64,000 nucleotides of DNA from Zobellia uliginosa. GTDB lineage: Bacteria; Bacteroidota; Bacteroidia; Flavobacteriales; Flavobacteriaceae. Made by a program: the position numbers and the translations under genes. Numbering within the stretch: position 1 is the first letter of the stretch; every line of letters begins with the position of its first letter. The stretch covers positions 124,001 to 188,000 of the forward strand of contig NZ_JAHKPY010000012.1 of NCBI RefSeq assembly GCF_018860745.1. The letters are read 5' to 3'. The notes beneath the pieces were generated by a model. That model was given only the letters and a program-made list of their open reading frames with translations, was not told where the DNA came from and searched no databases. Shown here one piece after another: positions 29,528 through 52,623 of this stretch.

Positions 29528-29567
29528 CAAATATAGTTATATTTGGTAAACCAATTTGGTAAACCAA
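29528..29567. promoter_or_regulatory. Divergent promoters with tandem GntR-type operators
   Basis: Two copies of TTGGTAAACCAA, at 29543-29554 and 29556-29567, 13 bp apart. A plus-strand -7 box TATATTTG (29538-29545) runs into the first copy and drives the gluconokinase-like gene. A minus-strand TATATTTG (29535-29528) drives the TIM-barrel/RraA operon. One bound repressor could silence both directions. Confidence 0.75.
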
Positions 29568-29578
29568 TTATTTAACAA

Positions 29579-30073
29579 ATGAGTAAAAAAGATAAATTTA
29601 CAGTGGTTTTGGTAGGCGTTTGTGGCACAGGAAAAAGTGTTACGGGCCAAAAAGTAGCCAAGAAATTAGGTCTACCCTTCTATGATGCGGATGCAAAATT
29701 TAGTGAACAATCGGCAGCAGATAAAGAAAATGCCCAATCTGACCAGTGGTTACCTGCTATCACCAACTTAATAAGTAAAGAATATACGAAAGACGGTTGT
29801 GTAGTTTCTTGTTCTATTTTAAAGAAAGAGCAACGCTTACTTCTCGCTAGAAATTTAGACTTAAATATTGATTGGGTTTTTATGAGCGGTACGTATGATG
29901 ATGTAAACCAACGATTGGACAAAGGACTTTCTAAAAATCAAACAGGTGCCTCACTTGAATCTGATTTTCAATCATTGGAAATTCCGAAAAGAGCACTTAC
30001 TGTAGATATTAGAAACACCGAAGAAGAAACAGTTGATACCATTTTAAAATATTTGGCCAGAAAATATGGTTGA
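29579..30073 (+). CDS. Gluconokinase-like P-loop kinase
   Basis: A 164-residue kinase of the GntK/shikimate kinase type. Walker A is GVCGTGKS (13-20), followed by FYDADAKFSEQSAADK where GntK has its DGDDFH region, then QWLPAI, CVVSCSILKKEQR and, near the end, SDFQSLEIPKRALTVDIRN. The arrangement matches GntK, but the sugar-binding loop is shortened and the usual R-x-x-HF lid is replaced by KGLSKNQTG, so the substrate may not be gluconate. Control by the alginate-type operator suggests phosphorylation of a uronate-derived aldonate or keto-aldonate. The start is 11 nt after the operator array. Confidence 0.75.
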   Translation: MSKKDKFTVVLVGVCGTGKSVTGQKVAKKLGLPFYDADAKFSEQSAADKENAQSDQWLPAITNLISKEYTKDGCVVSCSILKKEQRLLLARNLDLNIDWVFMSGTYDDVNQRLDKGLSKNQTGASLESDFQSLEIPKRALTVDIRNTEEETVDTILKYLARKYG

Positions 30074-30130
30074 ACCCATCTTTGTGAACTTGTTTAGCAC
30101 CCTTTTGTTTGTTCTATACAAAATTATCCC

Positions 30131-30160
30131 TAATTTTGGTAAACCAAATTGGTAAACCAA
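30131..30160 (+). promoter_or_regulatory. Promoter with tandem GntR-type operators for the PL17 gene
   Basis: -7 box TAATTTTG at 30131-30138 merges with TTGGTAAACCAA at 30136-30147; a second identical copy is at 30149-30160. The PL17 start is at 30468, which implies a leader of about 320 nt. In that leader I see only one possible long-range stem (TTGGTCG near 30266 with CGACCAA near 30346) and no gene. Confidence 0.72.
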
Positions 30161-30467
30161 TTTATGTAATTACGCTCCGGGCAATCCATAGATTCCCTTA
30201 AAAGTATTGTAAAAGATAGATATTGAGATAGCATCTTTAAAAATAGCAGAGCCATTAACGTGCAGTTGGTCGTCGGTAAGCTATTGTAAAAGTCAGGAAT
30301 ATAGCGTTCAGCATTTCAGAAAACTTATAAATAATCGGCGACCAATAATTATAGTATTGAAGACCACCGAGGAACTTTTTCTCAATTCAAAACTAAATGT
30401 GCAATTCCACTAGTAATGGAATAAGCTAATGAATAATATGACTTTAAGGCCTGATATATAACTACAG

Positions 30468-32723
30468 ATGAAAATGTTCAAAAATACAGTGGTAATTCCG
30501 TTTTTTATTTGCGTCTTGTTTATGTCTTTTAATAGCCACGCACAAGAACATCCTAAATTAATTTTGACTACAGAAGGGGTTCAAAAAATAAGAGCTGAAT
30601 TAGGCAATGTACCTCTTTTTGATGCGACATTGGCCATGGTAAAAGCCGAAGTAGATGCTGAAATAGTATTGGGAATAGACACCCCAATTCCCAAAGATTT
30701 TTCAGGTGGTTATACACACTCTCGTCACAAACTAAATTTTCAGACACTTCAAAAAGCAGGTGTTTTGTATCAAATTTTGGAGGATGAGAAATATGCTGTC
30801 TATATTAAAGATATGCTCTTCCAATATGAGGCCATGTACAAAGATTTACCTGTACACCCGCAAACGCGTTCTTACGCCAGAGGCAAATTATTCTGGCAAT
30901 GCCTAAACGATTCTAATTGGCTGGTTTATGTAAGTCAGGCGTATGATTGTGTTTATGATTATTTATCTAAAAAGGAACGCAAACAACTTGAAAAGAATCT
31001 TTTTAGACCTTTTGCTGATTTTATATCCATTGATAATCCTCAGTTTTATAACCGTGTTCACAATCACAGTACCTGGGGCAACGCTGCTGTGGGTATGATT
31101 GGATTGGTTATGGATGATGACGATTTAATTCAGAGAGCGTTATACGGAATAGAGGACGATGGTTTACCCGTTGGAGCTAAAGATAATGATGGTGGTTTTA
31201 TTAAAACAGAGGGTCAAGAAGTTGGATTTTTAGCTAATGTAGATGAGCCGTTTTCACCTGATGGTTATTATACGGAAGGCCCATATTACCAGCGTTATGC
31301 CATGTATCCCTTCCTGATTTTTGCAGAAGCCCTGCACAACGTAAGGCCTGAGTATAAAATATTTGCACATAAGGATAGTGTTTTGCTTAAATCTGTAAAC
31401 GTGCTCGTAAACCTGTCTGATGCCGATGGTGATTTTTTTCCTCTTAACGATGGTCAAAAAGGCATGTCATATAAATCGCCAGACGTAGTCACTGCTCTTG
31501 ATATTGCCTATCACTATGGTGGCCACAATCCACAATTATTAAGCATAGCCAAAGAGCAAGGTAGAGTATTATTGGATGATTCAGGTCTAGCCGTTGCAAT
31601 TGGCATTAGAGATGGCAAAGCTGAAAGTTTCCAGAAAAAATCAATAAACCTTTCAGATGGCACCAATGGCGACCAAGGTGGCGTGGGTATACTTAGGTAT
31701 GGAGATGAAGAAATGACATTAGTATATAAATATGCGGCTCAAGGCTTAAGTCATGGTCATTATGACAAACTTTCTTTTTCGCTATACGAAAAAGGAACGG
31801 AGATATTACAAGATTACGGATTGGCCCGTTTTGTAAATATTGAGCAAAAGGGCGGGGGTAATTATTTAAAGGAAAATAAGACATGGGCCAAGCAAACTAT
31901 AGCGCATAATACTTTAGTTCAAAATGAAACCTCCCATTTTGGAGGAAAGTATGAAGTGGGCAGCAAACACCATTCGGAACTTTACTTTTTTGATACGTCC
32001 AATCCAGAGGTACAAGTAGTAAGTGCCAAAGAAATTAATGCGTATCCCGGCACCGAAATGCACAGAACTTTGGCTCTAATCAAAGCCGATAATTTTGAAA
32101 AACCATATTTATTGGACATCTTAAAAGTTGAATCTAATACTGAAAATCAATATGATCTGCCCTTCTATTTTAAGGGTCAGATTATGAAAACAAATTTTGA
32201 TGTTACAGCTCCTACTACTTTAACGACCTTTGGTTCCGATAATGGCTACCAACATCTTTGGTTGGAAGCAATAGGAGCACCTAAGGAAGAAAACACTAAA
32301 CTTAGCTGGTTAGAAAACGGACACTTTTACACATTATCTACTGCCACTACCAATAAAGATGAATTAAACTTTGTGCGTATTGGCGCGAATGACCCAGACT
32401 TTAATTTAAGAAGAGATGCCGGCCTTGTGGTAAGAAGAAAAAAAAGCAAGAATACTACATTCGTTTCTATCCTAGAATCCCATGGACATTACAGTCCGGT
32501 TTCTGAGTTTTCAGTGAATTCCAATAGTATAATTTCCAAGTTAGAAATTATGATCGACACCAAAGCATATACAGCTGCATTGATTCAAACGAAGTCTACT
32601 GGAGATAAGCTGATGCTAATATTGGCAAATGAAGATAGTGCTTCAGATATAGAGCATGTTTTGAAAATAAACGAGAAAGACTATAGCTGGAAAGGACCTT
32701 ACGCATTTATCAAAATCAAGTAG
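30468..32723 (+). CDS. Exo-acting oligoalginate lyase, polysaccharide lyase family 17
   Basis: A 751-residue exported enzyme: signal peptide ending SHA before QEHPK, an alginate-lyase alpha/alpha toroid (about 30-380) and a heparinase II/III-like beta-sandwich (about 400-740). Active-site landmarks of family 17 are present: VHNHSTWG with Asn199/His200, DGYYTEGPYYQRYA (about 265-278) with the catalytic Tyr, SHGHYDKL with a His, and ENKTWAKQTIAHNTLV. The size matches Saccharophagus Alg17c. Family members release unsaturated monouronates from oligoalginate. This is the step that feeds KdgF and DEH reductase. The gene has its own operator-controlled promoter. Confidence 0.95.
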   Translation: MKMFKNTVVIPFFICVLFMSFNSHAQEHPKLILTTEGVQKIRAELGNVPLFDATLAMVKAEVDAEIVLGIDTPIPKDFSGGYTHSRHKLNFQTLQKAGVLYQILEDEKYAVYIKDMLFQYEAMYKDLPVHPQTRSYARGKLFWQCLNDSNWLVYVSQAYDCVYDYLSKKERKQLEKNLFRPFADFISIDNPQFYNRVHNHSTWGNAAVGMIGLVMDDDDLIQRALYGIEDDGLPVGAKDNDGGFIKTEGQEVGFLANVDEPFSPDGYYTEGPYYQRYAMYPFLIFAEALHNVRPEYKIFAHKDSVLLKSVNVLVNLSDADGDFFPLNDGQKGMSYKSPDVVTALDIAYHYGGHNPQLLSIAKEQGRVLLDDSGLAVAIGIRDGKAESFQKKSINLSDGTNGDQGGVGILRYGDEEMTLVYKYAAQGLSHGHYDKLSFSLYEKGTEILQDYGLARFVNIEQKGGGNYLKENKTWAKQTIAHNTLVQNETSHFGGKYEVGSKHHSELYFFDTSNPEVQVVSAKEINAYPGTEMHRTLALIKADNFEKPYLLDILKVESNTENQYDLPFYFKGQIMKTNFDVTAPTTLTTFGSDNGYQHLWLEAIGAPKEENTKLSWLENGHFYTLSTATTNKDELNFVRIGANDPDFNLRRDAGLVVRRKKSKNTTFVSILESHGHYSPVSEFSVNSNSIISKLEIMIDTKAYTAALIQTKSTGDKLMLILANEDSASDIEHVLKINEKDYSWKGPYAFIKIK

Positions 32724-32925
32724 TATAAGAGATAATTCATAAGTCTTCTGGTAGTAAGAAAAGAAGCATCTATGGAAATTCTTACTGACTTTGAAATTTG
32801 CTGAAACTTTTAATTTTCAATTCTACTTTCGGGCTTAACCATACCCCAATTAAATTTCAAAAATGCACTGCAAATATTTCTTTTTATTTCAGTTCTTTTG
32901 ACGGCTATATTTAACCTTTTCAATT

Positions 32926-32988
32926 AACTTTATAATTTGATTTTCAATGCCCTTAACAGTAAGATTATGAAAACCAAATTATAAAGTT
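32926..32988. terminator. Long inverted repeat between convergent PL17 and kdgF genes
   Basis: AACTTTATAATTTG (32926-32939) and CAAATTATAAAGTT (32975-32988) are perfectly complementary, with an inner TTTTCA/TGAAAA pairing. It can fold in RNA from either strand and lies between two genes transcribed towards each other, so a bidirectional transcription end is likely. The stem is AT-rich with no strong U-tract. The rest of the gap 32724-33046 shows nothing. Confidence 0.4.
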
Positions 32989-33046
32989 TAATTAGTTTCT
33001 TCGCTAAGAGATTTTGCGGAAATTACAATTAAGGATAGTATTTATT

Positions 33047-33421
33047 CTACTTTTTATCTCCAAAATAAGATACTCCATCACCACTTAAAAAATCTTCTCT
33101 TACCGGACTAAAGGTGTCAATAAGCTCTCCTTCTTCTAAGCAAACCGCACTATGTAATAAATTAGGTTCAATATATACGCCATCTCCAGCTTCTACGATT
33201 TTCTTTTCTCCATTAATTTCAAATTCAAATTTACCTGAAACACAAAAGGTAGCTTGCGTGTGAAAGTGTTGATGCGGTGCACCTAATGCCCCTTTATCAA
33301 ATTTCACTCTTACCATCATGATTTGGTTATCGTAACCCAAGAATTTTCTGGATACTCCTCCTCCAAGTTCTTCCCAATCCATTTCTTTTGTGATGATGTA
33401 CTTTTCACTAAATCGTTTCAT
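33047..33421 (-). CDS. kdgF: Cupin protein, KdgF-type uronate-linearising enzyme
   Basis: A 124-residue single-domain cupin. The first motif is APHQHFHTQATFCVSGKFEF, with the His/His/Gln metal ligands around residues 50-56; the second is AGDGVYIEPNLLHSAVCLEE, with the fourth ligand His90. KdgF converts the cyclic unsaturated monouronate released by lyases into linear 5-keto-4-deoxyuronate (DEH). The position between PL17 and SusC supports this role. It is on the opposite strand to the rest of the locus and has no visible GntR-type site of its own. Confidence 0.85.
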   Translation of the reverse strand: MKRFSEKYIITKEMDWEELGGGVSRKFLGYDNQIMMVRVKFDKGALGAPHQHFHTQATFCVSGKFEFEINGEKKIVEAGDGVYIEPNLLHSAVCLEEGELIDTFSPVREDFLSGDGVSYFGDKK

Positions 33422-34304
33422 TTTTTCTTAAGATTTATCAAATAATAATTACCTAAGCAAGATAATTTATTTCAAACTATTAAAGAAGCAAGAACGCAGA
33501 ATTATACTATTTTAATGCATCTGTTTTGTTATTTTTTTCTACTGAAAGTCAACACTTTATCTATTTACCCCTAATTAGTTCAAAATAGATCTTTGGATAC
33601 TTTCAATAAGACAATTTGCACGCTCTTTTTTATGCAATCACATTATCAATAATGGAGTTTTTTTTCGGTATGAAATAAAGAAAAAACAATCATACGTATT
33701 CTATTCTTTTTTATGCTTAAGCTAACTCTAGAAAAATCAATAAATTCAAGAATGTTGATTAAATCACGAGTCGTTTTCATAAAATTATTAAAAAATAATA
33801 AAATTTAACAAAGATAAAACTGACCCAAGACAGGTGCATGATTAATATGAGGCCACCACTAAAGCTACCCAAATATTAGAATTGCAACTCGCAGAACAAG
33901 GAACAAATAAAGCACACCATTATTTTTGAAACCCTTTACATCACGAACAAAATTACCTGGAATAAATGAGCATATTATATAATTTTTTGGAGTAAATCCA
34001 CAAATTATTTATAAGTCTTTAATATTTAGAACCCCTTGTTTTATTGGCTTTACAGCAATTTTATACATCTTTAAAAATCTAACAAGTCCGTTTCGGATAT
34101 CTGTCAATCGTACCATATTATAAATCCTCTACAAATAATTTAGGTGTCACAAATACACCTTGACTAAATAAAAAACATTCTTAATTAAGAAAAATAATTC
34201 AACTCTTTTATCAATTTACTAAATGAACGAACTCCAAAATATTAGATACTTAAAATAGCAACTCAATTTTCTCAATAATATTTTTTTTTAACAAACTATT
34301 AAGT
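33422..34304. other. AT-rich gap without a recognisable gene, upstream of the susC promoter
   Basis: About 880 bp between kdgF (minus) and the susC promoter. It is very AT-rich and all frames are interrupted often. I find no credible small gene, no tRNA and no operator of the TTGGTAAACCAA type. It may hold the kdgF promoter near 33425-33480 and decayed coding sequence. Confidence 0.4.
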
Positions 34305-34347
34305 TATATTTGGTAAACCAAATTGGTAAACCAGTATGGAAAACCAA
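34305..34347 (+). promoter_or_regulatory. Promoter with three tandem GntR-type operators upstream of susC
   Basis: -7 box TATATTTG (34305-34312) merges with TTGGTAAACCAA (34310-34321), followed by TTGGTAAACCAG (34323-34334) and the weaker ATGGAAAACCAA (34336-34347), exactly every 13 bp. About 58 bp of this region is nearly repeated at 44600-44660. The susC start is about 330 nt downstream. Confidence 0.75.
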
Positions 34348-34415
34348 TTAAAATTAGAACAATTGGCTAGTATTAATTAAAGAAACACCTCATGAAAATA
34401 TAGAGTACACAAACG

Positions 34416-34446
34416 AAAAAAGGACGGGCGCACACCCATCCTTTTT
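34416..34446 (+). terminator. Intrinsic terminator or attenuator in the susC leader
   Basis: AAAAAGGACGGG, loop CGCACA, then CCCATCCTTTTT: an 11-bp stem with one mismatch and a U-run. It lies about 100-130 nt after the presumed start site and 200 nt before susC, so it would either attenuate the susC-susD operon or end a separate short RNA. Confidence 0.6.
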
Positions 34447-34575
34447 AACTCAAATTACTTCATTCTGAAGGGAAGTAATACTACGAACTTGCACAATATA
34501 CTATACACGCTCACTACAAAAATACAATTATTCAGGACTTTATTGAGCCGGTTGTTATAGTAAGTTGTTGATTAA

Positions 34576-34614
34576 ATGAAATTCTCACAATTTCATTAAG
34601 GCATCGGGCCTTAA
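34576..34614 (+). other. Two hairpins just upstream of the susC start
   Basis: ATGAAATT-ctcac-AATTTCAT (34576-34596) is followed at once by TTAAGGC-atcgg-GCCTTAA (34596-34614). Both are perfect and sit 35-70 nt before the susC ATG at 34649. They could stabilise the message or be targets for a regulator or small RNA. Confidence 0.4.
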
Positions 34615-34648
34615 ACCGATACATATTACTAACTTAACATTAACACAA

Positions 34649-37600
34649 ATGAATTTAAAAAACAAACTAGCACTAATACTTGCGGTGTTTATAAATGCCG
34701 CGATATTTGCTCAAGACGCGTCTACCATATCGGGAACGATTGTAGACGACGCTAACGTACCTATTCCTGGAGTGAATGTAGTTATTTCAGGCACAACAAC
34801 AGGTACTGCAACGGATTTTGATGGACTTTACACTATAAATGCCAATAGTGGAGACGTACTTCAATTTTCGTATATCGGTTATGTAACTCAAAACATAACT
34901 GTAGGAGACCAAGAAACTATTAATGTTGTAATGACCGAAGATGCTGCATTACTTGATGAAGTAGTAGTAGTCGGATACGGTACTGTCAAAAAATCACATC
35001 TTACCGGATCAGTATCAAAGGTAGGCGGTGCCGAAGTTGCTGCCGTACAAGTGGCTCGTGTAGATGATGCACTTGCAGGTAAGTTACCCGGTGTAAGAAT
35101 ACAAAATCAAAGTGGTGAACCTGGTGCAGCCCCAAAAATCCAAATTAGAGCAGCTTCATCTGTTTCCGGTGATTCAGATCCTTTAATTGTTGTAGATGGA
35201 TATCCTATTTCAGGTAATTTGGCTACCGTTAATCCAAATGACATTGAAAGTTTAGAGGTTTTAAAAGATGCTGCTTCAGCTGCTATTTATGGTTCTTTGG
35301 GTGCAAATGGAGTTATATTGGTAACTACTAAAAAAGGTAAATCGGGTAAAGTTAATGTTAGCTACAATACCTATACAAGTACCTCAAGTAAATATGTTAA
35401 AGACATTGACATGCTTAAAACAGCCGGAGAATGGGCTAATGATTTACAATCGGGTGATTATGATCTTTCTCAAACAGACCCAGCTTTATTACAATATAGA
35501 CTAGATGCATATGCAAATGCACCTGATGTAGTTAGTATGGAAGATTGGCTTTTCAAAAACGGTAGTTCTACAAGCCACGACGTAAGCGTAAGCGGAGGGT
35601 CTGAAAACTTAAGAGCCTTTGCTTCTTTAGGTTACCTTAATACCGATGGTATTGTTAGAGGTCAAGGTTATGAAAGATATAACGGACGTATGAACGTAGA
35701 TGCTAACTTGGGTAAAAAGTTAAAGGCCGGTTTAAGCATGAACGGATTTATGGGTACTCAAGATATAGTGCCATGGGAGATGAGAGATCTTTTAAGAGCT
35801 TATAGTATTAGTCCTGTTTATCATACACAAGAATCTATTGATTTTGTTCAGCAGTTGGATCAAACTAGACAATCAGTGTACGATGCAAGTGTAGAGCGTG
35901 GTAATCCAATAAATCAACTAAGCGGTTCGTTTGACAGTAACTATAGAGGTGATAAAAGTCTTAATCTAGATGCTCAGAGTATTTATGACTTACAACCTGG
36001 TGATGCAGTTAACGATTGGCATTATGGTAGAAATCAAAACGGTATTGGAGGTACAGGTGATGCAGGCGTAGGATCAAAATTTAATGAATCAAGACGATAT
36101 GTAAAAACTTATTTTGCAAATGCCAGTTCTTATTTAGACTATAAAATCATAGACGGGTTAAATTTAAAAACTGTTTTTGGAGCGGATATTCAAGACACTG
36201 AAACTTACACCTACAATGGTATACTAACAGATGGTCAACAACGTTCCAATCGAACTGCATTGGACATATCTAATATTAAAAAATCTACTGTATTAAGTAC
36301 AACTACTTTAAACTATGCGAAAGTGATTGCTGACAAGCATGATTTAAATGCATTGGTTGGTATGGAATTTGTAAATACTTACTTCAGAGGAATGTCATCA
36401 AGTGCTACGAACGTGCCATCTGGCTCACCTCTTAATTATTCGTTTTTTGCACCGGAAGATGTAATTACAAACTTCGTAGATGCTAATCAGTCAAGAAGAG
36501 GTATTTTTGGAAGAGTTGCATATGCCTATGATAATCGTTATCTACTTTCGGCATCAGTTAGAAGAGATGGCGATTCACGTTTTGGAGCTAATGAAAAATA
36601 CGCCGTATTCCCTGCACTTTCTTTAGGATGGAATGTAAGTAACGAATCTTTTTTAGCAGGCAACGAAAAATTAAGTCTTTTAAAACTAAGATTTAGTACT
36701 GGGTCATTAGGTACTGCCGGTTTCTTAGACTCTTACCAATCATTGAGTATTTTAGGTAATACGCCAACTGCTTTCGGAAATGGGTTTCTAGTTCCTGAAG
36801 ATGTTGCAAACGCTGATTTAACTTGGCAAACCAATACAGAAACCAACTATGGTATTGATTTAGGTTTTATAAATAACCGCATCAGGTTTAGTGCAGATTA
36901 TTATACGTCTGACGTTCAAGACATGTTAATTAACCAAAGTGTTTCTGAAGTTTTAGGTATACCTTCTATTGCAGTTAACCGTGGTGATGTAACTAGTTCA
37001 GGTTTAGAGCTGGAATTAGATGTAAAAGCAATATCTAATGAAAATTTTTCATGGAGTGTTAGTGCCAACTTATCAACGGTTGAATCAGAAATTACAAGCC
37101 TAGGTAACCTAGATGAACTACCAAGACAAGTTTATGGTGGACCAAGTGGTAGAGGGGCTGAATTTAGAAATTATGTTGGTGGAGAAATTGGTGAAATGTG
37201 GGGGTTTGAAACTGCAGGCCAGGTTGAATCCATATACATGGAGGATCCATCAAGAAATGTAGGTTATCAAAGTGGTTTGTATTACGTAGTTGACCAAGAT
37301 GGAGATGGCGAAATTACCTATGAAGGTGATTATGTGAAGTTAGGATCGGCTACACCAGATTTCTTTTGGGGGCTTTCAAGTAATATGAACTATAAAGATT
37401 TTGATTTTTCATTCCAATTCCAGGGATCTCAAGGAGCAGAAGTTTACAATCTTGACCCTATTTATTGGCAATCTCAATTTCGTAATGCTACAGGTCCTAG
37501 TTTTGATGCAAATAATGATGGTCTTGCTGACAATAATGGTCTACATTATGAACAAACCAGAGATGCGCATGGTTCAATGATTCAAGATGCTTCATATGTA

Positions 37601-37852
37601 GCATTGAGAAACCTAACTTTAGGTTATACGTTAAATTCAGATTTGACGGACAGAATAGGTCTTAGCTCCATAAGAATGTATGTTGCAGCTACTAATTTAT
37701 TATACTTCATGGCTGATAACTACACTTCATTTAACCCTGAAGGTGTTGAAATTGAAAATACTGGTTATGCAGGTCCAACAACCTACGGATACCAAGAAGG
37801 TGCTAGCCCAATTGTAAGGAGTTTCACACTTGGCCTTAATGTTAATTTTTAA
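34649..37852 (+). CDS. SusC/RagA-family TonB-linked outer membrane transporter for alginate oligosaccharides
   Basis: A 1067-residue TonB-dependent transporter. Signal peptide (1-21, ending AQ), then a carboxypeptidase-D-like regulatory domain (about 24-105, ISGTIVDDANVPIPGVNVVI), the SusC-type TonB box region (LLDEVVVVGYGTVKKS), the plug (VDDALAGKLPGVRI ... DPLIVVDGYPI ... LKDAASAAIYGSLGANGVIL) and a 22-strand barrel ending in an aromatic residue (LGLNVNF). It imports oligosaccharides captured by SusD. The substrate is inferred from the surrounding PL6/PL17 genes. It is co-transcribed with susD, 10 nt downstream. Confidence 0.95.
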   Translation: MNLKNKLALILAVFINAAIFAQDASTISGTIVDDANVPIPGVNVVISGTTTGTATDFDGLYTINANSGDVLQFSYIGYVTQNITVGDQETINVVMTEDAALLDEVVVVGYGTVKKSHLTGSVSKVGGAEVAAVQVARVDDALAGKLPGVRIQNQSGEPGAAPKIQIRAASSVSGDSDPLIVVDGYPISGNLATVNPNDIESLEVLKDAASAAIYGSLGANGVILVTTKKGKSGKVNVSYNTYTSTSSKYVKDIDMLKTAGEWANDLQSGDYDLSQTDPALLQYRLDAYANAPDVVSMEDWLFKNGSSTSHDVSVSGGSENLRAFASLGYLNTDGIVRGQGYERYNGRMNVDANLGKKLKAGLSMNGFMGTQDIVPWEMRDLLRAYSISPVYHTQESIDFVQQLDQTRQSVYDASVERGNPINQLSGSFDSNYRGDKSLNLDAQSIYDLQPGDAVNDWHYGRNQNGIGGTGDAGVGSKFNESRRYVKTYFANASSYLDYKIIDGLNLKTVFGADIQDTETYTYNGILTDGQQRSNRTALDISNIKKSTVLSTTTLNYAKVIADKHDLNALVGMEFVNTYFRGMSSSATNVPSGSPLNYSFFAPEDVITNFVDANQSRRGIFGRVAYAYDNRYLLSASVRRDGDSRFGANEKYAVFPALSLGWNVSNESFLAGNEKLSLLKLRFSTGSLGTAGFLDSYQSLSILGNTPTAFGNGFLVPEDVANADLTWQTNTETNYGIDLGFINNRIRFSADYYTSDVQDMLINQSVSEVLGIPSIAVNRGDVTSSGLELELDVKAISNENFSWSVSANLSTVESEITSLGNLDELPRQVYGGPSGRGAEFRNYVGGEIGEMWGFETAGQVESIYMEDPSRNVGYQSGLYYVVDQDGDGEITYEGDYVKLGSATPDFFWGLSSNMNYKDFDFSFQFQGSQGAEVYNLDPIYWQSQFRNATGPSFDANNDGLADNNGLHYEQTRDAHGSMIQDASYVALRNLTLGYTLNSDLTDRIGLSSIRMYVAATNLLYFMADNYTSFNPEGVEIENTGYAGPTTYGYQEGASPIVRSFTLGLNVNF

Positions 37853-37862
37853 TTAAGAAATA

Positions 37863-39212
37863 ATGATAAAAATGAAAACCATATATATAGCAGCAATTTC
37901 CATGATGTTAATGACATCATGTGATAATGAGTTGGATCAAGTGCCACTTGTTGACCTTGAATCAAATAATTTGGAGAGCTTTGCCGGTGTTTTAAATGCC
38001 GCGTACTATTACCATACCGGTGCTGTAACACCACAAGCGGTAATGGGCGAATTTAGAGCTGATAATTTAACGTTTGAATTTGATGATGAGCCACCATATC
38101 CTGATTTTCACACGTATAATTCAGATTTAGGAGGTTTAGCTATTTCAGAAATATATTTTCGCCCGTTTTATAGAGATTTATACAAGTCTATCTTAAGTGC
38201 GAATACAGTCATTGATAAGTCAGAAAGTGCTACTGAAGTAGCTGAAGCTAAATTTTTAAGGGCTTTGTCTTACTTCAAATTAGTGATGGTTTTTGGTGAT
38301 GTTCCTGTAATTTTAACTCCGCAGCCAGATGTATCAGTTATTCCTGATGTAGATCTTACAAGACAACCAGCTACCGAAGTGTATAACAATGTTATCATTC
38401 CTGATTTTCAAGCAGCAATTGCAGGTTTAGATAATTCTGGATTAGGAACTGGGCGCGCATCCAAAATTGCAGCCCAAGGTTTACTCGGAAAAGCATATAT
38501 GTTTAGAGGTGATTTCGCTCAAGCGGCAATAGAGCTTGGAACTGTTATTAACGAAGCCGAAGCTGCAGAGGTTACTTTAGAAGCCGATTTTGCTAACGTG
38601 ATAACCGATGAAAGTTCAGAAATTCTTTTTGCCACTAAAATGTCAAGTTCTATTCCAAACTCAAGCACAGGTACAGCGTTTGCAGGATGGTTTCAAGGCA
38701 AAGACACAAAGGCTGACCAAGACAATGTAACATCGAGCTTAATTGCTGCTTTTGATGCTAGTAGTGCTGCTGGTGGAAGTGAAGATTTGAGAAAAGCATT
38801 AACTATTGATTCAGAACTTAAGAGAGGTGTCAAATACACAGCTGATCAATATGACCAGGACTTTATTGAACTAAGATTAACTGATGTTATCCTAATGTAT
38901 GCGGAAGCATTGAATGAAACAAGTTCTCCTGCTTCTACAGTACTACCTTTATTAGATCCTATTAGAACAAGAGCAGGTTTAACTAGCTTAACAGGCACAG
39001 TAAGCTCACAAGCTGATGTTAAACAAGCTATCCTAGATGAAAGAAGAGTGGAGTTGGCCTTTGAGGGACATAGATGGTTTGATTTAGTGCGAACAGGTAC
39101 CGTAGATGCCGAAATGGAACAAACAATAAGTAGTAATTATTATGTGTTTCCAATTCCAAGCTCTGAAATACTTGCAAGCGATGGAGAGATTACCCAAAAT
39201 GAAGGTTACTAA
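37863..39212 (+). CDS. SusD/RagB-family glycan-binding lipoprotein
   Basis: A 449-residue lipoprotein with lipobox MTSC (Cys at residue 20) and the SusD start SCDNELDQVPLVDL. TPR-like helices follow (AEAKFLRALSYFKLVMVFGD) and the C-terminal family segments are clear: DVILMYAEALNE, VKQAILDERRVELAFEGHRW and FDLVRTG. It lies on the cell surface as the lid of the SusC channel. At 449 residues it is shorter than many SusD proteins (500-600). It is followed by a strong terminator, so susC-susD is a self-contained transcript. No SusE/F-type surface protein follows. Confidence 0.93.
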   Translation: MIKMKTIYIAAISMMLMTSCDNELDQVPLVDLESNNLESFAGVLNAAYYYHTGAVTPQAVMGEFRADNLTFEFDDEPPYPDFHTYNSDLGGLAISEIYFRPFYRDLYKSILSANTVIDKSESATEVAEAKFLRALSYFKLVMVFGDVPVILTPQPDVSVIPDVDLTRQPATEVYNNVIIPDFQAAIAGLDNSGLGTGRASKIAAQGLLGKAYMFRGDFAQAAIELGTVINEAEAAEVTLEADFANVITDESSEILFATKMSSSIPNSSTGTAFAGWFQGKDTKADQDNVTSSLIAAFDASSAAGGSEDLRKALTIDSELKRGVKYTADQYDQDFIELRLTDVILMYAEALNETSSPASTVLPLLDPIRTRAGLTSLTGTVSSQADVKQAILDERRVELAFEGHRWFDLVRTGTVDAEMEQTISSNYYVFPIPSSEILASDGEITQNEGY

Positions 39213-39295
39213 AATCTTGATTAAAGCCCAAGTAGGCGAAAACATTTTAAATAAGTCTCGTCTTTTAGAATCAATTATTTGAATTTAGCTTTTTA

Positions 39296-39342
39296 TCTAC
39301 CGTAAACCGCCAAGACAAAAATGACTTGGCGGTTCAGGTAGA
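39296..39342 (+). terminator. Strong hairpin terminator after susD
   Basis: AACCGCCAAG (39305-39314) pairs perfectly with CTTGGCGGTT (39325-39334), and the stem is extended by TCTACC/GGTAGA at its base. It lies 84 nt after the susD stop. No U-run follows, so it may act mainly as a 3'-end stabiliser. Confidence 0.65.
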
Positions 39343-39596
39343 AGATTCCTATAAGTACTTTAGTGTAACATCAAGAGATGTTAATTCATGTACCTAAAGT
39401 CTCATATATATTATAGAAGTACTTATTTTAAAAAATAATCCCTAACCACAAATAATTATTTTGAATACACAGCCTCTGATACTATCAGTATAAACTAATA
39501 GGCTCTTTTCAAAAACACAGTTTTAAAATCTAGAATCTACAAATTAGATTATAAAGCTAAGATGATACGATGCAGGTTATTGGATATTAATATTGA

Positions 39597-39656
39597 GTTG
39601 TTTTGAGTTAGATTGAGAGTAATTTTTCCGGCCCGCTCACCACGGGTCGGTAAAAT
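39597..39656 (+). repeat. Duplicated 60-bp hairpin element upstream of the first GntR gene
   Basis: Differs from 44717-44776 at only three positions in 60. It contains the hairpin CCGGCCCG-ctcacca-CGGGTCGG (39628-39650). The other copy reads CCGACTCG on the left arm, and the two stem changes keep pairing through G-U pairs. The rest of the gap 39213-39766 contains the susD terminator and the GntR operators. Confidence 0.6.
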
Positions 39657-39719
39657 CTCAAAAATCACCATACTCCTACTCTATCATGAAAAAGGATTTT
39701 TGATAGTTTTTTTACTGTT

Positions 39720-39744
39720 ATAGTAAACCAATCTGATTAACCAT
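39720..39744 (+). promoter_or_regulatory. Degenerate tandem GntR-type operators at the first GntR gene
   Basis: ATAGTAAACCAA (39720-39731) and CTGATTAACCAT (39733-39744) keep the 13-bp step of the other arrays but match the palindrome less well, which would suit weaker autoregulation. The GntR start is 22 nt downstream. No TAnnTTTG box is seen here. Confidence 0.55.
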
Positions 39745-39766
39745 TTTTTTGAACTGCACACCCGTT

Positions 39767-40495
39767 ATGAAATTAGAAATACTGACAAAAGACGAAAATA
39801 GAGAAATCCAAAACGGGATTATTTTACAGATTCGTGACCTCATCAACTATAAAAACCTCGAACCTGGTGACAAGTTACCTGCCGAAAGAGTATTATCCGA
39901 GAAATTTGATGTCAGTAGAACCAGTGTACGCGAAGCCATTCAAAAACTTGAGTTTTATGGTATACTAAATTCAAAACCACAGAGTGGAACTTTCATTGCA
40001 GAAATTGGTCAAATTGCTATGAACGGTATGATTGACGACATTACCAGTTTAAAAAAACAAGATTTTATCTCATTGGTTGAAACTCGCATTTTACTGGAAC
40101 TGAAAATGGTGAAATTAGCAGCTATAAGAAGAACTGATGAAGATTTAGAACGCATTAAACATGCCTTGGATGCATACAAAAACAAGATGATTTCCGGTAA
40201 AGATTGTCTAGAAGAAGACTTACTTTTTCATTTGGCCGTAGCTTCTGCAAGTAAGAACAGTACTATGAATACACTCATGTTACTAATAACCCCAGAGATT
40301 ATAGTAGCGTATGACATAGACCGTGTTTGCGAGGGTGATGTGGCCTTATCAGAAGTTAAAAAGCATGAAGATATCTATATGGCCATTCGGGACCAAAACC
40401 CAAAATTAGCCAAAGAAAAGATGAAATTACACTTTAGTAAATTATACGATTACATCTACGGAGAAGATAGAAAAATTAAGATTCCCAAAGAATAA
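39767..40495 (+). CDS. FadR-type GntR-family regulator of the alginate locus, copy 1
   Basis: A 242-residue regulator. The N-terminal winged helix reads IRDLINYKNLEPGDKLPAER then SEKFDVSRTSVREAIQKLEF and GILNSKPQSGTFIAEIG. The C-terminal FCD domain begins at about residue 95 (FISLVETRILLELKMVKLAA) and includes EEDLLFHLAVASASKN, whose His residues and acidic residues normally bind a metal and the effector. The paralog at 44903-45631 is almost identical. FadR-subfamily proteins bind tNGTnnnACNa-type palindromes; the TTGGTnnACCAA arrays in the locus fit. Alginate loci of Zobellia are reported to be under a GntR repressor (AusR); the effector is probably a KDG/KDPG-like intermediate (inference). 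An upstream in-frame TTG at 39749 was rejected. Confidence 0.9.
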   Translation: MKLEILTKDENREIQNGIILQIRDLINYKNLEPGDKLPAERVLSEKFDVSRTSVREAIQKLEFYGILNSKPQSGTFIAEIGQIAMNGMIDDITSLKKQDFISLVETRILLELKMVKLAAIRRTDEDLERIKHALDAYKNKMISGKDCLEEDLLFHLAVASASKNSTMNTLMLLITPEIIVAYDIDRVCEGDVALSEVKKHEDIYMAIRDQNPKLAKEKMKLHFSKLYDYIYGEDRKIKIPKE

Positions 40496-40591
40496 GAGTA
40501 TAGAGAACATCGAGTATTGGAAAATAATTTTAGAATTTGAAGGTCGAAACTATTTTGTTGGTCAGTTATATCCCAATTGAAAAACCACATA

Positions 40592-42910
40592 ATGAAAGCT
40601 AATCTATTACTCATTGTCGCCATTTTTCTTCTACTTTCCTGTGGTAAAAATTCAAATGGAAAAACACTACATGTAAACGATATTCCAGAATTAAACAAAG
40701 CAATTGAAGAAGCAGTACCTGGAGATGAAATTGTAATGGCAAATGGGACTTGGAAAGACACCCAAATCATCTTTTTTGGAACAGGTACTAAAGAAAACCC
40801 CATTAGCTTACGTGCAGAAACGCCTGGAAAGGTCTTTATGGAGGGACAATCTTATCTTCATCTTGGAGGCGAACACCTAATAGTTGACGGCCTATATTTT
40901 AGAAATGGCTATTCTACTAGAAGTTCCATTATTCGATATATGATTAGCGAGGATAGTATTGCCTACAACTGCAGGGTCACAAATACCGTTATTGAAGATT
41001 TTACCAAACCAAATAGATTGGTCAATGACCGTTGGATTGAATTTTACGGTAAACACAATCAACTGGACCACTGTTATATTTCAGGAAAATCAAATGATGG
41101 AGAAACTTTAAGAATCTTTTTTACTGGTAATGAACATATTAACAACTACCATCAGATTGTACATAATTATTTTGGTCCGCGCCCTAGAAAAGGTGGTCCA
41201 AGAGCTGAAACGATACGGGTTGGAGACAGTAAAACCCGAGTTTCTCCCAGTTTTGCAAATATTTCCGACAATTATTTTGAAGCGTGTAACGGTGAAGTGG
41301 AAATTATATCGGACAAAACAAACTTCAACACCTTTAAAAACAACATATTTTACAAATGTGAAGGTTCCCTAGTTTTGAGACATGGAAGCTATGCCACCGT
41401 AGATAGCAACATTTTTATTGGCGGTGATGATTCTGACTTTTATGGAGGTATCCGAGTTGTAAATACAGGACATTGGATTACCAACAATTATTTCTATAAG
41501 ATAAAAGGTGCACAATTCAGAAGTCCGCTCGCCATTATGAATGGAATTCCGATGACGCCTTTGAATCGATACCTACAGGTAAGCGATGTTGTGGTTGCCT
41601 TTAATACTTGGGTAGATTGCAAATCTCCATGGCAAATAGGTGTTGGCCAAAATCTTGAAAGTGCAGATGTACTTCCGGCTAGTGAAATTCGTTCGGCGCC
41701 ACCTATACGAACTATTGTAGCCAATAACATTATATATAATACACAGGTAGATGAAACTCCTTTTATAAATCTTAGTTCTACTGATGGAATTCTATTTAAG
41801 AATAACATCATAAATAACGCTAGTGAAGATTATTCTGATTATGATGTTTTGCAGAGTGGTACTATAAAAATGAAAAAGATTAACGATTGGTTATATGCAC
41901 CAGCTATTTCTAAAAACCAAATTTTGGATACTGTTTATACTGGCTACGATTTTGCTAAAATTAACCACGATATATTTGGTGAATCAAGAACGGAAAAGAA
42001 TAGCATTGGCGCAATTAACCAAACCGCAACAGCTGAAAAATTTACCATTGACAAGAAGAAATACGGCCCAAAGTGGTTTTCTACTAAAAAAAATGATGTT
42101 GAGCCAAAAATATTGACCGCTTCATCTGCAGTAGGCCAACTTACCAAAAAAATTAGCGAAGCGTCTTCGGGAGATATCATTGAGCTAAGCGATGTATTAT
42201 ATACACTTCCCTTTTCGCTTAAAATAGATAAAGAAATTACGCTTCGTTCTAAAGATCCTAAAAAAAGAGCAGAGCTCGTATTCACAGGAGAGCAAGATTC
42301 TATGGCTTTTCAAATGAAGCCAAAAGCGTCCCTCAGGTTAGAAAGTATCTTATTAAAAGGAGAAAGAGGCAAGTATGCCTTTGCCCCTTTAAAGGAAAAT
42401 ATGGCTTCGGCTTATAACTTGTATATTGAGAATTGTGTGATTGAGAATTTTAACTATGTTCTAAAGGCTTACAAAGGGTCTTTTGCAGACGCCATCAACT
42501 TCAAAAAAACAACGATTAAAAACTGTAAAAACGGTATTGAATTAGCTGCAGAAGATAAAGGTGATTATAATGCCGAAATGGTCTCTTTTGACCATTGCTC
42601 TTTTGAAAATATACAAAATAATGTCATTAATTTTTATAGAGTTGGTTATGACGAATCAACTATAGGAGGGTCTTTATCCGTAACAAATAGCTCCTTCACC
42701 AATAGTGGGCAGGGCGAAAACAGCAATATTTTGATTAAAACTAGCGGAATTATCAATGTGACTATCCATGACAACTCCTTTGAAAATAATTCTGTAGAAC
42801 TTGTTGCTTTATTGTGGGGAGAAAAGAACAATCATCACCAAAACAACACCCTCATAAATTCCGGGAAAATTAAAGTTGAAGAACAGAAAAAACTTAAGAT
42901 ACTATACTAA
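40592..42910 (+). CDS. Polysaccharide lyase family 6 alginate lyase (two-domain), lipoprotein
   Basis: A 772-residue lipoprotein (lipobox LLSC, Cys at residue 17 or so). The N-terminal right-handed beta-helix domain (about 25-430) contains the family 6 catalytic region: NGEVEIISDKTNFNTF, with the catalytic Lys near 241, and EGSLVLRHG, with the catalytic Arg near 262. A second beta-helix-like domain (about 450-772) makes it a full-length, two-domain member, a class that includes exolytic MG/poly-G lyases. The chondroitinase B relationship is excluded by context. The start at 40592 (MKANLLLIVAIF) gives a proper signal peptide. It is 96 nt after the GntR copy 1 stop and probably shares its transcript. 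Confidence 0.92.
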   Translation: MKANLLLIVAIFLLLSCGKNSNGKTLHVNDIPELNKAIEEAVPGDEIVMANGTWKDTQIIFFGTGTKENPISLRAETPGKVFMEGQSYLHLGGEHLIVDGLYFRNGYSTRSSIIRYMISEDSIAYNCRVTNTVIEDFTKPNRLVNDRWIEFYGKHNQLDHCYISGKSNDGETLRIFFTGNEHINNYHQIVHNYFGPRPRKGGPRAETIRVGDSKTRVSPSFANISDNYFEACNGEVEIISDKTNFNTFKNNIFYKCEGSLVLRHGSYATVDSNIFIGGDDSDFYGGIRVVNTGHWITNNYFYKIKGAQFRSPLAIMNGIPMTPLNRYLQVSDVVVAFNTWVDCKSPWQIGVGQNLESADVLPASEIRSAPPIRTIVANNIIYNTQVDETPFINLSSTDGILFKNNIINNASEDYSDYDVLQSGTIKMKKINDWLYAPAISKNQILDTVYTGYDFAKINHDIFGESRTEKNSIGAINQTATAEKFTIDKKKYGPKWFSTKKNDVEPKILTASSAVGQLTKKISEASSGDIIELSDVLYTLPFSLKIDKEITLRSKDPKKRAELVFTGEQDSMAFQMKPKASLRLESILLKGERGKYAFAPLKENMASAYNLYIENCVIENFNYVLKAYKGSFADAINFKKTTIKNCKNGIELAAEDKGDYNAEMVSFDHCSFENIQNNVINFYRVGYDESTIGGSLSVTNSSFTNSGQGENSNILIKTSGIINVTIHDNSFENNSVELVALLWGEKNNHHQNNTLINSGKIKVEEQKKLKILY

Positions 42911-42989
42911 TACATTGCTAGCAAACAAAAATGTCACCAGGTGAAATTGCCAAATCGTAAGTCAATTACATTATCAAAAAAAATAAACA

Positions 42990-44264
42990 ATGGAAAACCC
43001 AGCAACCAAATCATCGTTCATAAAAAAAATTCTAGCCATTGTACTTGCTTTCGGCCCGGGTATTTTTGCAATTGGCTATACTATTGGCACAGGCAGCGTA
43101 ACATCCATGATTGTTGCGGGTAGTACCTATGGAATGCAATTGCTATGGGTTTTAGTTCTAAGCTGTATTTTTTCCGGTATGCTTATGTACGCCTATGGCA
43201 ATTATGGTTTGGTAACCGGAGAAACGGCCTTGTATGCCTTTAAAAAACACATTAAATGGGGAAAACCCATTGCTATTTTAATAATATTAGGTGTATCCTT
43301 TGGCCAATGGAATTCACTCATGGGAATACTTGGTATTTCAGCAAATATTATATTCGAAATATTTTTGATTTACTTTCCCTCATTAGCTGAATATCAATAT
43401 GAATTGGTCCTTACAATTGCTATAGCCGTCATTGCTATTATGTATCGTTTTTTATTGATAGGTAAATATGTTTTCTTTGAAAAAATACTAGTCATTTTCG
43501 TAACCATTATGGGACTTTCTTTCTTTATTTCTCTATTTATGGTATTCCCCCTACCTATAGAAATAGCAAAAGGTCTCATACCCTCTGTTCCAGAGGTTGA
43601 AGGTGGAAATATGATGGTTGCCGCTTTTGTGGGAACGACTATGGCTTCAGCAACTTTTCTTTCCCGTCCACTTTTTGTAAAAGGAAAAGGATGGACTATA
43701 AATAACTTAAAACAACAGAAGAAAGATGCCATCATAGCCGCCTCCCTTGTTTTTGTAATTAGTGCTTCGGTCATGGCGGTAGCCTGTGGAGCTTTGTTTC
43801 ACGAAGGTCAGCCCGTAACCAAAGTTTTGGATATGGTTAATACACTAGAGCCGGTTGCCGGCAAATTTGCACTTACACTTTTCTTTTTTGGAACTTTAAG
43901 CGCAGGACTATCCTCTATATTCCCATGTTTACTCATAGCCCCTATTCTATTGGCAGATTATCAATCTGGAGAGTTGGATACTACCTCAAAACAGTTTAAG
44001 GTTATAACAGCATTAGCCTGTTTATTTGCTTTGATAGTTCCCATTTTTGGAGCGAACCCCATAGAAATGCAAATTCTATCTCAGGTTTTCAATGTTTTTG
44101 TTCTGCCGTTAGTTATCCTAGGTATTATTTTACTAATCAATAACGCTAAACTAATGAAAGCCCATAAAGCAAAACTCCCTTTAAATATTGGTTTATTTGC
44201 GGCATTGTTTTTCTCCTGTGTTATCTCATACAACGGTATAATAGCGCTAATTGAATATTTTTAA
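42990..44264 (+). CDS. Nramp-like transporter lacking the canonical metal-binding motifs
   Basis: A 424-residue membrane protein with about eleven spans and an Nramp-type start (LAFGPGIFAIGYTIGTGSVT). In true Mn/Fe transporters the first span carries DPGN; here the equivalent stretch reads IGTGS. The sixth-span MPH motif is replaced by TTMASATFLSRP. The fold is therefore of the APC/Nramp type, but the metal site is missing. It lies 79 nt after the PL6 gene. Possible cargo: a uronate or small organic acid, or an ion other than Mn/Fe; I cannot decide from the sequence. Confidence 0.8.
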   Translation: MENPATKSSFIKKILAIVLAFGPGIFAIGYTIGTGSVTSMIVAGSTYGMQLLWVLVLSCIFSGMLMYAYGNYGLVTGETALYAFKKHIKWGKPIAILIILGVSFGQWNSLMGILGISANIIFEIFLIYFPSLAEYQYELVLTIAIAVIAIMYRFLLIGKYVFFEKILVIFVTIMGLSFFISLFMVFPLPIEIAKGLIPSVPEVEGGNMMVAAFVGTTMASATFLSRPLFVKGKGWTINNLKQQKKDAIIAASLVFVISASVMAVACGALFHEGQPVTKVLDMVNTLEPVAGKFALTLFFFGTLSAGLSSIFPCLLIAPILLADYQSGELDTTSKQFKVITALACLFALIVPIFGANPIEMQILSQVFNVFVLPLVILGIILLINNAKLMKAHKAKLPLNIGLFAALFFSCVISYNGIIALIEYF

Positions 44265-44617
44265 AGTATGATAATTAATATTTTGAAGTTTTTTATTTTC
44301 TCGATAACATCATAAGAGTCTTCTTTATACATTAGTTTTTGACCTCTATATCTAACTCATTTCGCTTAAACCGAACAATAATGAGTTTCGTTAACCTCAG
44401 AAGGAATTATAAGAGAATAAATAGCTCATAACTATATTTTTCAGACACCATTTGATGTTTGCAATTAGATAGATATTCAGATTCGCTTTCCTAAAACCGT
44501 TGAATTTTAAGAAAAGTCAAACTAATGATTTAACATGTGAGCACTCATTTGGGTAGTCTGGATGATTTGCAACATCAAATTTCTCTTTATTAATTTTTAT
44601 TTAACAATCTATTAAGT

Positions 44618-44660
44618 TATATTTGGTAAACCAATTTGGTTAACCAGTATGGAAAACCAA
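44618..44660 (+). promoter_or_regulatory. Promoter with three tandem GntR-type operators, near-copy of the susC promoter
   Basis: TATATTTG (44618-44625) merges with TTGGTAAACCAA (44623-44634), then TTGGTTAACCAG (44636-44647) and ATGGAAAACCAA (44649-44660). The match to 34288-34347 covers about 58 bp. Between here and the GntR copy 2 start there is no gene, only the 60-bp hairpin element and a second operator array. The gap 44265-44600 shows nothing recognisable. Confidence 0.7.
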
Positions 44661-44716
44661 TTAAACATGTGATTTTTTAATAAACTGTTTCAAAGAAATA
44701 TTAGAATACGAAGAAT

Positions 44717-44776
44717 GTTGTTTTGAGTTAGATTGAGAGTAATTTTGCCGACTCGCTCACCACGGGTCGGTAAAAT
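44717..44776 (+). repeat. Duplicated 60-bp hairpin element upstream of the second GntR gene
   Basis: Partner of 39597-39656. The hairpin CCGACTCG-ctcacca-CGGGTCGG lies at 44748-44770 and is followed by TAAAATTTTG, so in this copy it could end an RNA of about 140 nt started at the 44618 promoter. Confidence 0.6.
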
Positions 44777-44853
44777 TTTGAAACCGCCAAATCCCTGTGA
44801 ATACAGGAGGTTATTAAAATAATAAAATACTTTTTTAGTACATTTATTTTATC

Positions 44854-44883
44854 TAATTTTAACAAACCAAACTGGTTAACCAA
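44854..44883 (+). promoter_or_regulatory. Promoter and tandem GntR-type operators at the second GntR gene
   Basis: TTAACAAACCAA (44859-44870) and CTGGTTAACCAA (44872-44883), 13 bp apart. TAATTTTA (44854-44861) differs from TAnnTTTG at one position. The GntR start is 19 nt after the array, consistent with autoregulation. Confidence 0.6.
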
Positions 44884-45631: not shown

Positions 45632-45859
45632 AACGCACATTTTATTCTAACTAAATATAATTCTGAAGGGAAACTAATACTTAAAAACTACTTGTCTAAT
45701 GAAGATAAACGGCTAAGTCCGTTAGAATTCTATCCTGATTATTTACAAAGTATTTAAGTACTTTAAATACAGATATTTAGAATAGCTTGCCTCCTATTTT
45801 TAAGAATATGGCCAGCCATTTCTATGTCTGAATATTATGAAAATTTTAAAAGAACGAAG

Positions 45860-47161: not shown

Positions 47162-47203
47162 AACAATATAACTAACACTAATTAATAGTAATTTACACGT
47201 AAG

Positions 47204-47975: not shown

Positions 47976-48011
47976 AAAAAAGCCTTTCTTTTAATTAAGA
48001 AAGGCTTTTTT
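47976..48011. terminator. Bidirectional terminator between DEH reductase and LacI genes
   Basis: AAAAAAGCCTTTCTT, loop ttaatt, AAGAAAGGCTTTTTT: a perfect 15-bp stem with A-run and T-run on both sides. It overlaps the last codons of the convergent lacI-type gene. Confidence 0.88.
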
Positions 48012-52461: not shown

Positions 52462-52623
52462 ATGTTACGCTGGACAGTTATATTTATCATATTAGCAATC
52501 GTTGCAGGAGTCTTCGGATTTGGAGGCATCGCTGCTGGAGCTGCTAGTATTGCAAAAATTTTATTCTTTATTTTTATAGTACTTTTTATAATCAGTTTGG
52601 TTATGGGCCGCAAGAAAATTTAA
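52462..52623 (+). CDS. DUF1328-family small membrane protein
   Basis: A 53-residue protein: [20 protein letters not shown], then [16 protein letters not shown] and a final hydrophobic span with a basic end (GRKKI). This is the YtjA/DUF1328 pattern of two short hydrophobic helices rich in Gly and Ala. Members accompany stress-response genes; here a CsbD gene lies 0.5 kb away. Function unknown. Confidence 0.85.

Follow-up and report, generated by a model that had tools for sequence, protein, structure and literature searches.

Tandem palindromes at a 13-bp step in an alginate locus

The DNA analysed here, a 64,000-nucleotide stretch of the Zobellia uliginosa genome (contig NZ_JAHKPY010000012.1, positions 124,001 to 188,000; hereafter, the window), holds a flavobacterial alginate locus that contains six arrays of a short palindromic unit. 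Alginate is a main polysaccharide of brown algae, and bacteria of this kind are among its degraders. It is highly likely that the arrays are the operators of a GntR/FCD repressor of the AusR type, encoded by two paralogous genes (GntR1 and GntR2), the dimers of which would sit over the transcription start site and probably bind cooperatively. As the initial annotation had described, there are 14 units in six arrays (2+2+3+2+3+2), at the coordinates given there and with a start-to-start distance of 13 bp throughout; likewise, the letters confirm that the first unit of four arrays is fused to a TAnnTTTG box (at 29538, 30131, 34305 and 44618). The unusual feature is the tandem arrangement, not the single units: with up to three mismatches, the window contains 143 single units versus 115.6 expected, a number reached by four of 100 shuffles, and we discarded this enrichment as weak at best and not clearly unusual.

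A scan of the 4.86-Mb genome for two copies of TGGTNNACCA separated by 0 to 25 bases retrieved five places, each with a gap of three bases (that is, a 13-bp step), and none for the reversed pattern. Four of these places are within the window; the fifth (contig 9, position 695,940) is fused to TATATTTG and precedes by ca. 70 bp another alginate lyase gene of PL6 type, which is not linked to the locus. The sole other exact array thus precedes an alginate lyase gene, and we did not find the same arrays at many unrelated loci, the outcome that the initial annotation had named as contrary to a GntR regulon.

With three mismatches allowed, pairs at 13 bp occur in 24 places of the genome versus 19 in the reversed control; for this reason, only exact or near-exact arrays were counted, and the degenerate arrays at 39720 and 44859 rest on their position and conservation, and not on the scan alone. 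The genome contains 26 exact copies of TTGGTNNACCAA (16 in the reversed control), seven of them in arrays and 19 inside open frames, and TGGTWWACCA taken alone gives no signal (51 matches vs 66 in the control). The fused promoter pattern TANNTTTGGNNNNCCA has 26 matches (8 and 11, by strand, in the reversed control), including five known arrays; of the remaining 21, 18 sit in open frames of at least 100 codons and none has a second unit at 13 bp, even with up to three mismatches.

The arrays co-occur with AusR

Both regulators contain a GntR winged helix-turn-helix (PF00392) and an FCD domain (PF07729) above the cut-offs, and their genes lie within an alginate utilisation locus (PF05426, PF14592, SusC/SusD, PfkB, KDPG aldolase and cupin), as is characteristic of AusR-type proteins. 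Their nearest named relatives are from Zobellia species. We then took as AusR any protein matching GntR2 at E ≤1e-60 and compared its distribution with that of the exact arrays in 299 genomes of the family (G numbers designate genomes). Arrays were present in 69 genomes and AusR in 73, with both in 68 and neither in 225, and the reversed pattern was not found in any of them. In the one genome with an array and no AusR (G154), the match falls inside a SusC-like coding frame; in turn, the five genomes with AusR only contain two to six arrays each when one mismatch is allowed, such that all 73 AusR genomes have arrays. The same one-mismatch search in 40 genomes chosen among the 225 without AusR yielded two with one match each. 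Among 395 genomes of the phylum, exact matches appeared in ten, G154 included, all of them among the 41 genomes of the same family, and in none of the 354 from outside it; the reversed pattern was found once in each of three.

Conservation of the step and of the promoter box

We examined the spacing of the units in 73 related loci (L numbers), retrieved in one scan using both window regulators and all labelled flavobacterial. With at most one mismatch in all, pairs of TGGTNNACCA occur 139 times at 13 bp, in 67 of the 73 loci, and 24 times at 26 bp, as in triple arrays, plus one each at 27, 39 and 40 bp. With up to two mismatches, there are 150 pairs at 13 bp, 47 at 26 bp and no more than 11 at any other distance, and three shuffled sets produced one pair at most at any distance. 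Likewise, 111 of the 246 perfect units have the next unit at 13 bp and the other 135 have none within 60 bp. When the units are read as chains, they form 106 arrays (62 double, 43 triple and one quadruple) in 68 of the 73 loci, from 23 named genera; the loci without arrays are L042, L064, L073, L076 and L086, the last three of which include less than 2 kb of sequence upstream of the regulator. In triple arrays, the outer units often have one changed half (TGGAAAACCA, TGGTTTTCCA), and the middle unit is mostly exact.

The overlap with the promoter claimed for the window arrays is general in these relatives. After dropping one array at a locus edge, TAnnTTTG is found at offset -6 in 93 of 105 arrays, 45 of which contribute to a TTG peak at -34. 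The genes downstream of the 105 arrays, assigned by best match to window proteins (for SusC, down to 32% identity), are SusC (66), GntR (9), PL17 (8), PL7 (4), PL6 (4) and a gene that we take, from its family, to be a KDG kinase (3), with six unassigned and five arrays with none. At the sequence level, therefore, one to three operator copies lie at alginate-gene promoters, as in AusR-type systems.

Some arrays in the related loci have other neighbours. Four from Winogradskyella (L050:17664, L058:18860, L063:18943 and L071:18823) precede proteins of 306-324 residues, which are possible new members of the regulon; the two that were scanned, from L050 and L071, matched only a type IX secretion system (T9SS) tail, and L050 also has a divergent gene with a weak polysaccharide-lyase match. 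The units at 1270 and 13401 of L095 (Winogradskyella vidalii) contain GC (TGGTGCGCCA, TGGCGCACCA) and, by their letters, appear to be a drifted operator variant; one of these arrays lies before a GFO/IDH/MocA oxidoreductase gene. Finally, L074:2941 (Algibacter pectinivorans) is a double array with no fused box, ca. 370 bp from a GH10-family gene.

Proposed mechanism and its alternatives

A map of transcription start sites from Flavobacterium psychrophilum places TAnnTTTG at -12 to -5 (PMC9723704), in which case the first unit should span the start site. We propose that one dimer binds each 12-bp palindrome TTGGTNNACCAA, so that unit 1 would cover approximately -7 to +5, unit 2 +7 to +18 and unit 3 +20 to +31, and that the bound repressor would occupy the start site and block initiation until released by intermediates of alginate breakdown. 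At 10.5 bp per turn, neighbouring dimers would be turned by about 90 degrees and would probably touch or share distorted DNA, and the 13-bp step hardly varies, for which reason we consider that they probably bind cooperatively. Two or three units would serve the SusC and lyase promoters, and the GntR genes, often keeping one good unit, would be weakly autoregulated. GntR1 and GntR2 presumably have identical targets.

Several observations weigh against this model. The two PL7 genes of the genome are not preceded by an exact array, and neither are the MFS/SDR nor the KDG-kinase-like genes, all of which might have weaker sites. In the related loci, two-mismatch pairs also occur at 14 bp (one), 15 bp (four) and 24 bp (nine), and two loci have a fused single unit without a second one. 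As to cooperativity, NanR from Escherichia coli is described to bind as three cooperative dimers on closely packed GGTATA repeats and to need for this a 32-residue N-terminal extension (PMC8012715). AusR is shorter at its N-terminus, its residue 18 aligning with residue 36 of NanR, and the conservation of its residues 1-13 (0.59) is below that of the winged helix-turn-helix (0.86) and FCD (0.78) domains. L099 was dropped from the alignment of regulator proteins, and a structure model of AusR was middling (mean pLDDT 74.2, pTM 0.57) and was not used.

The lack of a NanR-like extension would fit a model in which each unit binds its dimer independently, the 13-bp step having been fixed by descent or tandem duplication and the extra units raising local occupancy; indeed, arrays at homologous promoters share a common origin (95% identity over 73 nt). 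This is nevertheless unlikely, because the step recurs at non-homologous promoters (SusC, PL17, PL6, PL7, GntR and kinase) across the 23 genera and no pair with up to one mismatch is found at 11, 12, 14 or 15 bp, while the central bases vary. We give equally little credit to a division of labour between the paralogues, with one acting on the strong arrays and the other on the degenerate ones or responding to another effector. Two regulator copies are kept in this genome at 83% identity, as well as two in G236, and GntR1 and GntR2 are preceded by different arrays; however, 62 of the 73 AusR genomes have a single AusR copy, and the two proteins differ at nine of residues 14-80, two of them near the recognition segment. 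As for the LacI-type gene present in the cluster, it is very improbable that its product, or any other regulator, owns the arrays, since these track AusR genome by genome and the form of the site is that of the FadR subfamily of GntR proteins.

Regulator promoters and a probable orphaned SusC promoter

The initial annotation had taken the degenerate arrays at the regulator genes as a sign of weak autoregulation. The arrays at 39720 and 44859 are indeed degenerate, and the comparison with relatives agrees with the idea and refines it, as these often contain one exact unit before GntR. An exact unit lies at no more than 60 bp before the GntR start in 30 of the 73 loci, 27 of them with a TA centre (one of 73 in the reversed control), and its sequence is mostly TGGTTAACCA; pairs at 13 bp with up to three mismatches are found within 130 bp of the start in 13 loci and in none of the 73 of the reversed control. 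In those of the latter loci that are from Zobellia, Maribacter and Kriegella, the first unit before GntR is degenerate and the second is CTGGTTAACCAA. The window array at 44859 carries TAATTTTA (44854-44861) at the position of the box.

The array at 44623 is placed before GntR2, but it seems to originate from a SusC promoter instead. Window positions 44593-44665 are 95% identical over 73 nt to the SusC promoter at 34280-34352, and Z. barbeyronii (L031) and Z. amurskyensis (L032) have a SusC/SusD pair between the triple array and GntR2; on these grounds, the most plausible reading of the array is that of a SusC promoter which lost its SusC/SusD pair and is now situated upstream of GntR2. The alignment between the window and L031 extends as far as the array and resumes ca. 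4.9 kb further on, at the region before GntR2, and G236, from the same genus, is likewise devoid of that pair. We infer a loss in the window rather than a gain in the relatives, and the presumed scar spans 44618-44717. In addition, a 67-nt repeat with an inverted repeat, recognised by eye, occurs before each of the two GntR genes and has only these two copies in the genome; it is perhaps a terminator.

A candidate antisense RNA in the SusC leader

The SusC leader of the window, of ca. 300 nt, contains on its complementary strand a candidate RNA of ca. 98 nt, formed by a hairpin (UUACUUCCC..GAAGUAA) plus a terminator-like hairpin and then a U run. The hairpin lies ca. 73 nt past the array, at 34420. 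We read this element as a small RNA gene because a minus-strand -7 box is combined with two conserved hairpins and the U run.

Terminator-like hairpins (≤-8 kcal/mol) are present in 21 of 61 SusC leaders longer than 90 nt and in none of 305 letter shuffles. Of the 299 family genomes, 39 contain the hairpin pattern, each at a single place, and AusR is present in every one of the 39. We inspected 57 copies (26 from relatives, 30 from loci of the genome search, some of the same species, and that of the window), in which the hairpin is 5 to 89 nt from the array; 56 of the copies are followed by a long open frame, which we took as SusC and which begins 135 to 229 nt past the hairpin. Leaving out L181, for which no start was found, and merging identical leaders (56 to 46), the aligned leaders show a second hairpin and, ahead of the first one, an A run; CAAAnnTA is present in 40 of the 46 leaders (mean of 9 and maximum of 17 in shuffles), with 37 of 46 CAAAnnTA occurrences at leader positions 100-119.

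The RNA was assigned to the minus strand because more cells of its alignment pair in that orientation (500 of 511) than as a plus-strand RNA (470), a difference coming chiefly from one U-G pair, present in 20 of 27 sequences, that is C-A on the plus strand. The 27 RNA sequences of this alignment (A3) were selected with a pattern in which the terminator stem is for the most part already fixed, and so the evidence that they provide is limited to the free positions of the stem, hairpin 2 and the box; the stretches were ended by script at the nearest box-like match, and three were re-cut by hand. Covariation is modest, with 17 cells changed on both sides versus 7.0 ± 2.1 in shuffles. Folding of the copy in the window (34415-34510) gives z = -4.4. 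A covariance model built from the window and 26 of 38 matched loci, the other 12 not having been used for it, matches once on the minus strand in each of these 38 loci (of 73) as well as in the window, with E below 1e-5 for 35 of the 39 matches (weakest, 0.016); across 43 further loci of the window's genome, the best match has an E of 0.019. On the plus strand there are 22 matches with E ≤0.1, 20 of which overlap the same hairpin, and the remaining two are at L033:16936 (E 0.0015) and at window position 52580 (E 0.028). The SusC leaders of loci with the RNA have at least 186 nt, except for the second SusC in L070, and 20 of the 26 in loci without it are shorter than 155 nt.

Other data are unfavourable to a small RNA gene. 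TAnnTTTG accompanies 29 of the 39 minus-strand matches with no TTG at -33, only three pairs show two-sided changes, a number reached by 61 of 500 shuffles, and four of the 12 model matches outside the training set (L090, L089, L093 and L031) fold poorly. The hairpin could then be an attenuator or another element of the SusC mRNA, since it falls within the predicted transcribed leader, the plus strand also contains a short T run, and no -33 element was found for the putative minus-strand promoter. We regard this possibility as rather unlikely, given the better pairing of the minus-strand RNA, that the longer run is of A before the hairpin, which is U after the hairpin on the minus strand, and that the frequency of minus-strand TAnnTTTG in the leaders exceeds that of all shuffles. 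We lean towards a double lock on alginate uptake at the SusC promoter of many Flavobacteriaceae, consisting of AusR dimers at a 13-bp step on the start site and a conserved antisense RNA ca. 70 nt downstream. The RNA, presumably constitutive, would set a threshold on leaky or early SusC transcripts.

G236 contains a copy of the RNA gene before GntR2 (L204:17215-17803), with a promoter array and with no SusC beneath. This orphan copy scores 104 bits versus 79.7 for the copy in the SusC leader, which has TG for TA in its box and disrupted pairing in the stem of the terminator; the orphan may be active in trans, on the leader of the other SusC.

Other features of the window

The features of the locus are collected in Table 1; the window also includes cupin, Nramp-like transporter, PfkB, PFK and KDPG aldolase family genes. 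The leader of the PL17-type gene (30161-30467), of ca. 300 nt, does not match the leader-RNA model; an Rfam search of the 27-54 kb region of the window retrieved nothing at gathering score. Outside the alginate genes, positions 18310-27480 encode a protein of 3056 residues that carries numerous Ig-like and DUF11 domains plus a CHU_C tail, beside a PorP/SprF gene.

Table 1. Genes, arrays and promoter elements of the alginate locus (window coordinates).
Feature	Position	Strand	Remarks
-7 box TATATTTG fused to 2-unit array	29538-29545 (array ends 29567)	+	promoter of gluconokinase-like gene
Gluconokinase-like gene	29579-30073	+	SKI family over cut-off; gluconokinase models below cut-off
-7 box TAATTTTG fused to 2-unit array	30131-30138 (array ends 30160)	+	upstream of PL17-type gene
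Oligoalginate lyase gene	30468-32723	+	PF05426, PF07940 over cut-off; oligoalginate lyase model below cut-off; PL17 type presumed from its family
-7 box TATATTTG fused to 3-unit array	34305-34312 (array ends 34347)	+	promoter of SusC/SusD
Candidate antisense RNA	34415-34512	-	ca. 98 nt, in SusC leader; 5' end predicted from box
-7 box TATTTTTG of candidate antisense RNA	34517-34524	-	no -33 element found
SusC	34649-37852	+	with SusD, main regulated uptake genes
SusD	37863-39212	+	see SusC
67-nt repeat, first copy	39597-39663	+	before GntR1
Degenerate 2-unit array	39720-39744	+	before GntR1; no TAnnTTTG box
GntR1	39767-40495	+	GntR/FCD regulator, AusR relative; 83% identity to GntR2
Alginate lyase gene	40577-42910	+	family match (chondroitinase B family); PL6 type presumed from its family
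-7 box TATATTTG fused to 3-unit array	44618-44625 (array ends 44660)	+	242 bp before GntR2
67-nt repeat, second copy	44717-44783	+	before GntR2
Degenerate 2-unit array	44859-44883	+	before GntR2; core of second unit exact
GntR2	44903-45631	+	GntR/FCD regulator, AusR relative
MFS transporter and SDR genes	45824-47959	+	no exact array of their own; SDR presumably DEH-reductase-like
LacI-type gene	47991-49028		in cluster

Comparison with known systems

AusR from Zobellia galactanivorans is described as a GntR-family repressor of an alginate polysaccharide utilisation locus (PUL), with single, double or triple operators from which it is released by intermediates (PMC7874173, PMC8286568, PMC8073546), and its gene is reported as duplicated at one Zobellia locus (PMC8073546). 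The window shares with this system the multiple operator copies at alginate-gene promoters, and its arrays are thus of a known kind; indeed, the GntR regulon proposed for this DNA, supported by our data, was already published in outline. The window differs in its two paralogues, its apparently orphaned SusC promoter and the unlinked PL6-type gene with an array of its own. We measured here how far the step is conserved, the constant position of the box and the co-occurrence across genomes, although these may have been published before; a literature search for tandem FadR operators at 13 bp retrieved no paper, and one for the motif letters retrieved only papers unrelated by title. A 13-bp array fused to a -7 box gives a readable signature from which the alginate regulon of flavobacteria, including unlinked genes, can be predicted.

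The FadR-type half-sites initially ascribed to the units hold as to their form, but not as to their spacing, since GT and AC are separated by 2 nt. According to PMC4494728, most sites of the FadR subfamily have a gap of 3 nt, and one of 2 nt is found in GntR, UxuR and a few others, to whose operator class the window units would thus correspond; the word tandem is absent from the main text of that paper, which leaves such arrays untreated. NanR is also a GntR-type repressor with repeated sites at a fixed close spacing, unlike AusR in having the long N-terminal extension. The nearly fixed step of the alginate arrays allows the packing of FCD regulators that lack this extension to be tested cleanly.

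The candidate RNA resembles in its layout the DonS-type RNAs of Bacteroides. DonS is presented as belonging to a family of cis-antisense RNAs, 78-128 nt in length, that lie opposite susC homologues in Bacteroides PULs, and ten further RNAs of the same orientation are given for B. thetaiotaomicron, five of them detected on northern blots (PMC7366714). Likewise, the window has a predicted RNA gene of similar length opposite a SusC leader, although it is from Flavobacteriaceae, is associated with alginate, adjoins AusR arrays and has no Rfam match at gathering score; its best match among the Bacteroides small RNA models is BTnc231 (17 bits vs 80.4). No antisense RNA at susC in Flavobacteriaceae appears among the literature titles listed, whose coverage is incomplete and is no proof of absence. 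If transcribed, the leader RNA would extend to Flavobacteriaceae the antisense control of PULs known in gut Bacteroides, and would combine it with a defined repressor acting on the same promoter.

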